NCBI GenBank assembly: GCA_018436705.1
Contig: JAHDLA010000022.1
Coordinates: 124,001-188,000 of the forward strand
From: Sedimentibacter sp.
Lineage (GTDB): Bacteria; Bacillota; Clostridia; Tissierellales; Sedimentibacteraceae
Reading direction: 5' to 3'
DNA length: 64,000 nt
A program made the position numbers and the translations under genes. The notes beneath the pieces are model-generated. The model made no database searches and was not told where the DNA came from. It saw only the letters and a list, made by a program, of their open reading frames with translations. The stretch's first letter is position 1. Each line of letters starts with the position of its first letter. Below, piece after piece: positions 10,006 through 24,324 of the stretch.

Positions 10006-11310
10006 ATGTTTGAGGGAATTGTGGCATCAAATAGTATTAGCTTTATACTTGTATTTTTAGAAGGAATATTATCCTTTTTTTCACCTTGTGTAATACCGCT
10101 AATACCAGTTTATATAAGCTATTTAGCTGGTGGTGGGAAAAGAGTAAATGAAAATGGTATGATTGTGTATGACAGGAAAAAAGTATTTCTGAACACAATG
10201 TTTTTTGTGTTAGGAATCTCTTTTTCATTCTTTATATTAGGAATGTCCTTTACGATTCTCGGCGGTTTTTTTAGCAATAATAAGCTGCTGTTTACAAGAA
10301 TAGGCGGAATAGTTATTATTATATTAGGGCTATTTCAGCTTGAAATATTTGATTTTTCGTTTTTGCAAAAAGAAAGAAAAATACATATTGAATTAACTGA
10401 TAAGAAAATAAACCCAATTATAGCCCTTATTATGGGATTTACCTTTAGCTTTGCATGGACACCATGTATTGGACCAGCCCTTTCATCGGTGCTTATTATG
10501 GCATCAGGAGCAACAACTTCATTAGTAGGCAATCTCCTTGTACTTGTTTATGCAATTGGGTTTTTAATTCCGTTCCTTTTACTTGGAATATTTACGACAC
10601 AGGTTTTGAATTTTATAAAATCAAAACAAAGACTGTTGAAGTATACTATTAAAGCCGGAGGAATAATTCTCATCATCATGGGAAGTATGATTTTTACGGG
10701 GTGGATGAACAATGTATCAGCTTATTTGAATTCTTATAGCGATAATAAACAAAGCAGTTCACAGGACATATCAGATAAAACAGATGAATATAAAAATAGT
10801 TCGGAAACTGAGAGCCTAGATAATAATTCTGATGAAGGAAATGAAACAAGTGATGAATTCCCGGCATTTGATTTCACTTTAACAGATCAAAACGGTAATG
10901 AACATACACTTTCTGATTATAAAGGCAAAGTTGTATTTCTAAATTTTTGGGCGACTTGGTGCCCGCCCTGTAAAAAGGAAATGCCGGATGTAGAGGCACT
11001 TTACAATGAGTATAATTTAAATCAGAGTGAAGTGGTATTTTTGGGAATTGCGAATCCTAGAAGTGAAGAGTATCCAAACAACCAGGATGGCGAAAAGGAA
11101 GAGATTAAAACTTTTCTACAAGATAATGGATATACTTTCCCTACACTATTTGATGAAACAGGAGAAGTGCTACAAAATTATAACATATCAGCATTTCCAA
11201 CAACATTTATGATTGATAAAAAAGGAAATATTTTTGGTTATGTTCCTGGTATGATGACTAAAGATATCATGGTTAATATAATTAACCAAACTTTACAGTC
11301 AACAGAATAA
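10006..11310 (+). CDS. CcdA-type membrane reductase fused to a TlpA-like thioredoxin
   Basis: In this 434-residue fusion the N-terminal half (about 1-235) is a CcdA/DsbD-type transmembrane electron carrier with six hydrophobic segments and the two conserved redox cysteines in FFSPC (C28) and WTPC (C154). A Ser/Asp/Glu-rich linker (about 245-285) leads to an extracytoplasmic TlpA/ResA-type thioredoxin domain with the active site ATWCPPCKKEM (C319, C322) and a cis-proline near AFPTTFMID. Such fusions carry thiol reducing power from cytoplasmic thioredoxin to the outside face. No cytochrome c biogenesis gene is nearby, so peptide methionine sulfoxide repair or exported-protein thiol control is equally likely. 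The start is preceded by GGAGAAAAGTT. Confidence 0.92.
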   Translation: MFEGIVASNSISFILVFLEGILSFFSPCVIPLIPVYISYLAGGGKRVNENGMIVYDRKKVFLNTMFFVLGISFSFFILGMSFTILGGFFSNNKLLFTRIGGIVIIILGLFQLEIFDFSFLQKERKIHIELTDKKINPIIALIMGFTFSFAWTPCIGPALSSVLIMASGATTSLVGNLLVLVYAIGFLIPFLLLGIFTTQVLNFIKSKQRLLKYTIKAGGIILIIMGSMIFTGWMNNVSAYLNSYSDNKQSSSQDISDKTDEYKNSSETESLDNNSDEGNETSDEFPAFDFTLTDQNGNEHTLSDYKGKVVFLNFWATWCPPCKKEMPDVEALYNEYNLNQSEVVFLGIANPRSEEYPNNQDGEKEEIKTFLQDNGYTFPTLFDETGEVLQNYNISAFPTTFMIDKKGNIFGYVPGMMTKDIMVNIINQTLQSTE

Positions 11311-11360
11311 AAACAAGAATAAAAATCCTAAGTTTATCTATAATTACAAATAACAAATTT

Positions 11361-11410
11361 AAAAGCTTGGAATTCATGAAAAATATGAATTGTCACGCTT
11401 TTTTAGTTTT
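11361..11410 (+). terminator. Terminator after the ccdA-trx fusion
   Basis: AAAAGC...AATTCAT pairs imperfectly with ATGAATT...GCTTTTTT across a short A-rich loop. The run of T residues follows directly. Confidence 0.6.
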
Positions 11411-11464
11411 GTCAGTATAAAATGAAGCGCTCAATTATATGCTTTTTAATTTTTATTTTTATAA

Positions 11465-11690
11465 TTTTGTTCTTCTATGTCTAAGGATATTGCCTTAAAA
11501 ACTATTGACTATATTGCTGAAAATGGAGATCTTAATGCTGTTTATATAACTTTTTATGGTGGGAGAGTCTCTGGTAGAAATTAATCTTTTAAAGGACGTA
11601 ATAGAATATTCTAAGCAAAAACTGTCTTATAGAAAAGTATCTTTTTCTTTCACAACAAATTTGATATTATGGGTTAATTATAGTTAATTT
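11465..11690 (+). pseudogene. Decayed radical SAM (SPASM/anSME-type) gene fragment
   Basis: Reading from ATG 11477 gives SKDIALKTIDYIAENG and then VYITFYGG. After one extra base near 11565 the next frame continues ESLVEINLLKDVIEYS and FSFTTN before a stop near 11689. The TFYGG-E-S/P-L segment is the conserved GGEP-like motif of radical SAM enzymes that act on peptides. The cysteine motif that should precede it and the C-terminal SPASM region are missing. This is an internal fragment with a frameshift, not a working gene. The former substrate peptide cannot be identified. Confidence 0.6.
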
Positions 11691-11784
11691 TTAATAAATT
11701 TTAAAATATAAGTGAGACTTTTTTAAAGCATAAACAATCAATAGTTACGTTTAGCGTGATTAAACAATCTTTATTCAGTTATGG

Positions 11785-11823
11785 AGCCGATGCAAGGCTA
11801 AATTGATTTGCATCGGCTTTTTA
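11785..11823. terminator. Strong hairpin terminator
   Basis: AGCCGATGCAA (11785-11795) and TTGCATCGGCT (11808-11818) form a perfect 11-bp stem followed by TTTTAATG. It probably ended the transcript of the decayed radical SAM gene. Confidence 0.75.
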
Positions 11824-11829
11824 ATGTCC

Positions 11830-12227
11830 AGAATATAAAGCGAGGACTTTTAGATTGCTATATATGTTGTCATATACTTACAGATTACAATCCGGTATAT
11901 GAATTTGATTGACATTATAAGTATTGTTTAAATTTGTCATAATATTAAGAACTTCGGCATTAACTATAGATGAAAATGGTGATATATGGTATATTATTTC
12001 TAATAGAATTAATTATTAACTATAGTCGCTTGATAGTTATTAATTATAAGCTAGTTAGCGATGATGAGTTGGGGTGTTACATAGGGCTTTGGATAAAGAT
12101 GGAATTCCTCATAAAAGATTAAATGCGTTGTAATGATTTATTTGGGTGAAGATGCTGATGATATGGATTTCGATGCAAGAAAAGATGAACATGAACTATA
12201 TGAAATTTAGGAAATGTTGAGGTAGAT
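11830..12227. other. Gap of about 400 bp without an intact gene
   Basis: AT-rich sequence with short out-of-frame coding pieces, for example one encoding ALDKDGIPHKRLNAL and one encoding DDMDFDARKDEHELYEI just before the next gene. They are too short and broken to assign. The region reads like an eroded gene next to the diadenylate cyclase-like gene. Confidence 0.35.
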
Positions 12228-13562
12228 ATGAAAAAAAACAGTATAGATAAAATAAAAGACAGCCTATCCTTTTTACTACAAGAAATTAATGCACCAATAT
12301 CTTTTGAAATAACTATAGGCAATCAGTTTTATGATGTAGATGATTATGAGATAAAAAAAACAAACGATGACTTGCCATTGTACAAATTAGATTCTAAAAG
12401 TAAATATCAAGAATGGCAAGTCATTTTTGATTTGGGCAATAACGGAAAAGTATATAGTCGTATTTTTAGTGGATATAGAGAATTCTTATCATTAATTGAA
12501 AAGGAAGAGCCTTATAATTATTCGTTTGTTATATTACATATTCCTATTAGTGAATATATAAAAATAGGTTATAAGATTATTGAGACCAATGACACGGAAT
12601 GGCAAAGTGATAAAAACTTATTTACTTTTGCTGAGTATTTAATAGAGATTTTTTTGTATTCATATAGAGACCCGCATATGATAGCCTATAAGGATATTGT
12701 GCGTAAGGCGGGAGAAGCATTTTTGTGTAAAATTCTATATTCTGATACAGATGAAAAAAATTTAAATATACACAATGATATTAATATTATATCTGCATTA
12801 AAGTATGAAAAAGGTGAAAATAGCGGAAGTCTTTTAATTTGTAGTGATATTGAAGATGTAATTAAAAAATTAGATCTTAAATTCGATAATCCAATAAGTT
12901 TATTGAGTCATAAAAAGATAAGAAAACTTTTGGAGATTGCTAAAGATGATATATTCTTAATTGGGACGCCTAGACGGGTATTTGGATTAATTTCTCAAGA
13001 ATCATTAAGTAAAATACTACACTTTACTGGTTACCTAGTGAAAATTCATGGTGCAGGCAATTGGAGTATAACGGAATTAAGAATTGCACAAAATCAATTT
13101 ATACCTATAATTCAGTGCAAAGATTCATTTTACCAATACACACAAGCAAAATTTAATGTTCAAGATTTTCATTCTGCAATAATGAACAGATTTCCTCATG
13201 CGAATATAGAACAGTTAACTGAGATTGTAAATATAGCCATACATCAAAAGCACGGTACTACCGTTGTTATTGCAGAGAATGCTAAAGATGAAGCGAATAG
13301 GTTAATATCTTCAAGTTTTAAAATTTCGCCCACCTATTCTGAAAGAATGATAAAACATATCACATCAATAGATGGTGCTGTGCTATTTGACACAAATGGT
13401 AATTGCCATGCAATTGGTGTAATATTAGATGGCAAAGCAAGTGAAACAGAAGATATTTCAAATGGTGCAAGGCATAATTCAGCGAAGAGATATAAGAATA
13501 TAAATACTAGCTGTGTCATTATTATTGTTTCAGAAGATGGTTATGTAACAGCGCTATATTAA
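12228..13562 (+). CDS. DisA_N-type diadenylate cyclase-domain protein with an N-terminal sensor-like region
   Basis: The 444-residue protein has a C-terminal domain (about 325-444) that matches the DisA_N/DAC fold. It carries the D-G-A motif (D382, G383, A384; IDGAVLFDTNG) and an R-H motif (R415, H416 in GARHNSAKRY). In the DAC family these bind ATP and metal for synthesis of cyclic di-AMP. The third position of the usual RHR is Asn (N417), as is also found in sensor-linked DAC variants. The first 320 residues are unlike the DisA helix-hairpin-helix part and unlike the CdaA membrane anchor. They contain no membrane segment and are probably a sensory or partner-binding region. The start is preceded by GAGG seven bases upstream. 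The gene stands alone between gaps. Catalytic activity is not certain. Confidence 0.75.
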   Translation: MKKNSIDKIKDSLSFLLQEINAPISFEITIGNQFYDVDDYEIKKTNDDLPLYKLDSKSKYQEWQVIFDLGNNGKVYSRIFSGYREFLSLIEKEEPYNYSFVILHIPISEYIKIGYKIIETNDTEWQSDKNLFTFAEYLIEIFLYSYRDPHMIAYKDIVRKAGEAFLCKILYSDTDEKNLNIHNDINIISALKYEKGENSGSLLICSDIEDVIKKLDLKFDNPISLLSHKKIRKLLEIAKDDIFLIGTPRRVFGLISQESLSKILHFTGYLVKIHGAGNWSITELRIAQNQFIPIIQCKDSFYQYTQAKFNVQDFHSAIMNRFPHANIEQLTEIVNIAIHQKHGTTVVIAENAKDEANRLISSSFKISPTYSERMIKHITSIDGAVLFDTNGNCHAIGVILDGKASETEDISNGARHNSAKRYKNINTSCVIIIVSEDGYVTALY

Positions 13563-24038: not shown

Positions 24039-24324
24039 GAAGACACGGGGAAGACACGGGGACGTTTCACATGTCTTTCCATGTATCTTATCAAGACAAG
24101 GATACTGAGTTATTGGCAAAAAGCAGTGTAGGAATCAGCATAGTAGAATAATTCAGAAAATGTAATGTTACAATAACCCCGTCCCTATATAATAATTTAA
24201 ACGAGCGAATATGCAAAGAGTAGCAGGAGAAAAGGATTACGGTAATATATAGTATAGGCTTAGACGAATAAACCAAGACAGGCGAAACGTCCCGATGTCT
24301 TCCCGATGTCTTCCCGATGTCTTC
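24039..24324. repeat. MITE-like element, copy C (286 bp)
   Basis: This is a near-identical copy of the 160-435 element in the same orientation, with one extra TGTCTTCCCGA unit at its right end. The terminal inverted repeats are GAAGACACGGGGAAGACACG on the left and the complement-like CCCGATGTCTTC units on the right. It contains a short frame encoding MSFHVSYQDKDTELL that is also present in copy B. That frame is repeat-borne and not counted as a gene. Confidence 0.8.

Follow-up and report, generated by a model that had tools for sequence, protein, structure and literature searches.

The window considered here is a stretch of 64,000 nucleotides from one contig of a Sedimentibacter sp. genome. 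On its forward strand, positions 12228-13562 form an open frame of 444 codons that starts with ATG. The preliminary description of this DNA had placed a gene at these positions, and it is indeed a real, intact one. At the local base composition, 444 open codons would occur by chance with a probability of about 1e-19. The codon usage is gene-like, matching that of the neighbouring genes in the gene's own frame only (0.55, versus -0.32 and -0.49 in the other frames). The features discussed below are the following.

11311-12227, no strand assigned: non-coding, probably decayed stretch upstream of the gene; congener identity stops at 11331
12219-12223, forward strand: GAGG-like ribosome-binding site immediately 5′ of the ATG
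12228-13562, forward strand: DACNH-DAC protein of 444 residues, predicted stand-alone diadenylate cyclase of the E. coli DS-2 cyclase family
12228-12677, forward strand: variable N-terminus (residues 1-150), pLDDT mostly below 60, without family match
12753-13163, forward strand: DACNH domain (residues 176-312), predicted DAC-like fold without DGA and RH motifs
13146-13559, forward strand: predicted catalytic DAC domain (residues 307-444), from Pfam match and predicted structure
13371-13379, forward strand: DGA motif (residues 382-384)
13470-13478, forward strand: RHN motif (residues 415-417), replacing the RHR of classical DACs

The gene is flanked by a ccdA-tlpA fusion gene and by a sigma-54 activator gene. 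In the nearest congener, the fusion gene is 95% identical and the match stops at window position 11331. From 11332 to about 18550, no high-identity match is found in 24 congeners, and from 18636 onward a U32 peptidase gene is 90-92% identical in three of them. The gene is thus in an accessory stretch, as had been proposed. It is absent from the 24 congeners, hence present in one of 25 genomes of the genus, and a search of 100 relatives' genomes yielded a homologue in only one other genome, belonging to another family. The accessory stretch also holds the PAS/sigma-54 activator, an agmatinase and a Gate-domain transporter, none of which is partner-like. The gene had further been described as lying between decayed sequences. 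This applies at most to the upstream side, where 11311-12227 contains no open reading frame of at least 80 codons and only fragments without a Pfam match; downstream, the sigma-54 activator gene is intact and starts 149 bp after position 13562. By eye, broken frames at 11460-11690 resemble part of a radical SAM peptide maturase, with a YGG-type motif. A maturase remnant was not retained, the upstream fragments having no match in Pfam. The fusion gene (10006-11310) encodes a CcdA-like membrane domain joined to a TlpA-like thioredoxin. Because its gene context in the nearest congener is different and the remaining congeners match the membrane half only, the fusion gene may itself be mobile.

No CD-NTase or effector was found among the window genes, and no CD-NTase was detected in the whole genome with either SMODS or PADLOC PDLC00823, the model that matches six of the proteins flanking relatives (see below). 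A PADLOC scan of the window protein returned nothing, with a 2023 library that is older than DS-2. Among the window genes, the PADLOC matches were to RtcR/PspF-type sigma-54 activator models, AAA/ABC ATPase-like models and candidate families; these were read as general families and not as defence genes. Within the window, no known defence-system gene was convincingly found around 12228-13562.

The protein had been presented as a diadenylate cyclase-like domain behind an unfamiliar N-terminus of 320 residues. Residues 1 to about 150 indeed match nothing, but residues 181-263 correspond to the Pfam domain DACNH (PF21750; 51 bits, gathering score 27), which Pfam describes as a 'probable sensor domain'. 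Pfam DAC (PF02457) matches residues 338-441 of 444 (55 bits, gathering score 27). The protein therefore has the domain order of the DACNH-DAC proteins in Pfam, with both domains above their gathering scores. PMC13092281 credits this architecture to Galperin 2023 (J Bacteriol 205 e00023-23). An AlphaFold2 model of the full protein, built from 39 sequences (the window protein and relatives' loci), is predicted with a pLDDT near 90 for most residues from 180 onward. When compared with the PDB, the predicted structure of residues 307-444 gives Z-scores of 12.8 with 2fb5 from Bacillus cereus, 12.2 with DisA and 11.7 with CdaA. These alignments cover 118-131 residues, and the next unrelated entry is at Z 2.9. 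The preliminary description had made its assignment dependent on a DAC fold, and the structure prediction supports such a fold.

The closest characterised counterpart is the third gene of DS-2, an E. coli anti-phage system whose CBASS operon encodes a phospholipase and a CD-NTase besides the DAC (DefensePredictor, PMC13092281). Two predicted catalytic residues of the DS-2 DAC were mutated, and defence was lost each time (PMC13092281). Our own search of 5426 complete E. coli genomes detected these three genes together in 18. The NCBIfam model of the DS-2 cyclase (NF053872, DS2_3_antiphage) matches residues 151-441 of the window protein with 211 bits, a third of the cut-off of 630 bits and thus below it, and leaves the N-terminal 150 residues outside the match; the E. 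coli DS-2 DAC itself, taken from strain AR_0128, scores 818 bits. The likeness resides in the DACNH-DAC core, the IDG(A/T) and G(A/S)R-x-N motifs, the cytosolic character and the accessory or mobile distribution. The differences concern both gene and locus. The DS-2 cyclase has 581 residues and the window protein 444, with a different and shorter N-terminus (residues 1-150 differ in length and sequence) and without the C-terminal extension of about 90 residues. Moreover, the phospholipase and the CD-NTase of DS-2 have no counterpart at the window locus.

The DGA and RH motifs had been noted as conserved, with Asn as third residue, and they are seen at residues 382-384 and 415-417. The oddity that was implied for the Asn has to be given up, since Asn is the rule in the DACNH-DAC family, DS-2 cyclase included (GSRYNSG, i.e. 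R-x-N as well). Alignments of 13, 39 and 45 relatives show no exception to the Asn of G(A/S)R-x-N, and the same holds for IDG, the DG of ILDG and other residues. The window protein retains all the family-invariant residues. A simple motif count finds R-x-N in 92 of 99 proteins. The CdaA of the same genome carries the classical RHR (GTRHRAA). The fold, the motifs DGA and R-x-N and the family membership together suggest that the C-terminal DAC domain would make c-di-AMP from ATP.

By its architecture, the protein is neither DisA, CdaA nor CdaS, in agreement with the preliminary description, which had seen it as stand-alone. The DAC fold is shared with DisA (Z about 12), and both proteins are soluble. 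However, in DisA the DAC domain is N-terminal and is followed by a linker and an HhH DNA-binding part, whereas in the window protein it is C-terminal, with neither linker nor HhH region, and the chain ends there. With CdaA/DacA the likeness is again that of the DAC fold (Z about 11.7), but these proteins have N-terminal membrane helices and a cdaR neighbour, which the window protein lacks. Its maximal hydropathy over 19-residue stretches is 1.24, versus 2.15 for the CdaA of the genome. The best structural match, 2fb5, is an enzyme that we take to be the CdaS-type DAC of Bacillus; here, both proteins are soluble and have a C-terminal DAC. The N-terminus of CdaS is short and helical, about 60 residues long, and inhibitory, whereas about 310 residues, including DACNH, precede the DAC of the window protein. 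Finally, a single further DAC is encoded in the genome, namely a CdaA of 275 residues whose gene is followed by a CdaR-like gene, and there is no disA. The presence of this separate cdaA-cdaR pair is in line with the earlier proposal that the gene does not serve the housekeeping supply of c-di-AMP.

The order of helices and strands in DACNH is similar to that of the DAC domain. DACNH was therefore folded separately. By itself (residues 176-312), it is predicted with a pLDDT of 90, and its structural alignment with the PDB puts DAC domains (CdaA, DacA, CdaM, DisA; Z 8.2-6.4) in all of the first 33 places. The alignments span 101-119 residues, almost the entire domain on both sides, and the next entry is at Z 3.0. 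Foldseek also ranks 18 DAC chains at the top, but with E-values of 0.14 or worse. Sequence comparison is silent on this point. The DGA and RH motifs are absent from DACNH, hhalign of DACNH against DAC gives no match, and the best path between the two profiles keeps to the expected register over 67 columns but is not significant, as 30 of 120 shuffled-column alignments reach its score. Because a Z near 7 can reflect a common arrangement, kinship between DACNH and DAC is held as likely, no more. DACNH is thus likely to be a diverged, catalytically dead DAC-like domain, and the protein would then combine a dead cyclase domain with a live one in tandem. By extension, it may be proposed, with the balance evenly poised, that the entire family, including the anti-phage DS-2 cyclase, consists of cyclase/pseudo-cyclase tandems in which the degenerate second copy controls the live one. 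If so, the dead copy might pair with the live DAC in place of a second live domain, and stand-alone members such as the window protein would act outside CBASS operons as self-contained alarm enzymes that make c-di-AMP when induced. DACNH-DAC proteins as such are already known; the new point is this pseudo-cyclase interpretation of DACNH. A PDB profile match to a cyclodipeptide synthase (E 0.058) was weak and was taken as chance, and a comparison with predicted viral structures gave nothing usable.

A scan of genome contigs with the single protein found no relative; an alignment-based scan found 258. No relative was found in the INPHARED phage genome records. Relatives occur on plasmids of Priestia, Citrobacter, Gluconobacter, Phycisphaera and Dyadobacter, in viral contigs and in many Bacteroidota chromosomes. 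One of those in viral contigs (locus L019) stands directly behind three serine recombinase genes. The tree places the window protein among mostly Bacillota sequences and outside the DS-2 clade, and the branches are long. Its join with L019 unites two such branches and is unsure; only the wider placement is used. According to PMC13092281, 15 of 30 homologues adjoin a CBASS. In the present set, a CD-NTase adjoins the DAC in six loci (L005, L009, L011, L022, L029 and L034), which fall in separate branches of the tree. Among 98 proteins flanking 33 relatives, PADLOC recognised CBASS cyclases (6), patatin effectors (2) and 2TM/Cap15 effectors (2), as well as E1-E2 and JAB partners; Pfam gave SMODS (3), Cap15 (2) and patatin (2). 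The link of DACNH-DAC proteins to CBASS is real, and it is not general. Chromosomal genes of Hymenobacter account for over half of the 80 loci kept. Since many chromosomal members, in Hymenobacter and other Bacteroidota, have no adjacent CBASS, the family is not solely a part of CBASS.

Taking these data together, the gene would have been acquired horizontally and would encode an accessory DACNH-DAC enzyme that makes c-di-AMP and is regulated via its pseudo-DAC half, with a role in defence that is plausible and unproven. We give this reading a probability of roughly 0.5. Mechanistically, the C-terminal DAC would bind ATP, and two DAC domains placed face to face would join two ATP into c-di-AMP. 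The DACNH domain would most likely serve as a regulatory pseudo-cyclase, pairing with the catalytic domains or keeping them apart until a signal reaches them by way of the variable first 150 residues. Because the host already has cdaA, the output would more probably be a burst on demand than a basal supply. By analogy with DS-2, one may speculate that phage infection is the most likely demand. With neither a CD-NTase nor a CBASS effector close by, the burst might work through c-di-AMP targets of the host itself or through a distant effector. A sensory or defence role had been suggested from the start. Defence is made plausible by the family, but no convincing defence gene surrounds this member in the window, and the argument for defence here therefore rests on kinship and not on context.

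The chief rival is an accessory c-di-AMP synthase unrelated to defence, in which a metabolite or stress sensor (osmotic, nucleotide or envelope) would tune c-di-AMP beside CdaA. The chromosomal copies in Hymenobacter and Pedobacter may be of this kind. Such a role would agree with the 'probable sensor domain' of Pfam, with the lack of a CD-NTase in the genome according to two profiles, and with the predominance of chromosomal Hymenobacter genes among the loci, two of which coexist in some genomes. Against it, however, stand the sporadic presence of the gene (one genome of 25 in the genus), the plasmid and viral-contig locations of relatives, their repeated adjacency to CBASS and the validated defence role of one member (PMC13092281). 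On balance, a sensor of this type is a possible but tentative explanation.

The two remaining explanations are less likely than the accessory stress or metabolite sensor. It may be imagined that the cyclase is the orphan of a former CBASS-like operon, open but functionless after the loss of its partners, as the decayed appearance of 11311-12227 and the absence of partner genes would have it. This is improbable for a frame of 444 intact codons with normal codon usage and all the family-invariant residues, the more so as other members remain intact though they have no adjacent CD-NTase (e.g. L004, L030 and L062). As for a catalytically dead DAC-like protein that would bind c-di-AMP and not make it, the idea starts from the third residue of the motif, Asn in the window protein versus Arg in classical DACs such as the CdaA of the genome. 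Yet Asn is invariant at this position throughout the family. The DS-2 cyclase has it too, and defence by that system requires the predicted catalytic residues of its cyclase. The Asn is thus no argument against catalysis, and a dead enzyme appears very improbable.

As a messenger, c-di-AMP is known chiefly for housekeeping duties. An accessory DAC family that is carried by plasmids and viral contigs, and of which one member is required for phage defence, prompts the question of what turns these enzymes on. If the 'sensor' domain is a dead cyclase copy, this question becomes directly testable, and the lone members, the present one included, would offer the simplest study cases, since no second cyclase accompanies them. 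The family being known and partly characterised, the interest of the present gene lies in its being a compact member that stands alone, and in the pseudo-cyclase interpretation of DACNH.

Several minor observations concern other members of the family. In E. coli AR_0128 (L143:4999-13676), one of the 18 genomes mentioned above, a DS-2-like operon of patatin, CD-NTase and DAC genes lies directly upstream of a second, complete CBASS containing DncV, an E2/UBC protein and Cap3 (dncV, cap3), so that two CBASS-like systems abut. The DACNH-DAC gene L021:5392-7200, in a viral contig, is found within a phage structural cluster, a typical place for cargo genes, beside large terminase-like and portal-like genes and ahead of capsid-like genes, all named by eye. 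Two long proteins of about 880 and 865 residues (L013:697-3332 and L023:5143-7737, one of them in a viral contig) carry behind the DAC a long, repeat-like C-terminal extension, TPR-like by eye, an architecture that differs from that of the window protein. In Hymenobacter and its kin (L050-L103), DACNH-DAC genes are very common, and the genomes with two loci include HSC-4F20 (L050, L076) and UV11 (L067, L070). The Hymenobacter proteins have no adjacent CD-NTase of the kinds tested and may serve purposes other than defence. In the window itself, positions 1-436 and 24039-24313, about 24 kb apart, carry near-identical copies (96-98%) of a sequence that the nearest congener also has, at 95% identity; they probably represent a small element that is mobile or repeated.
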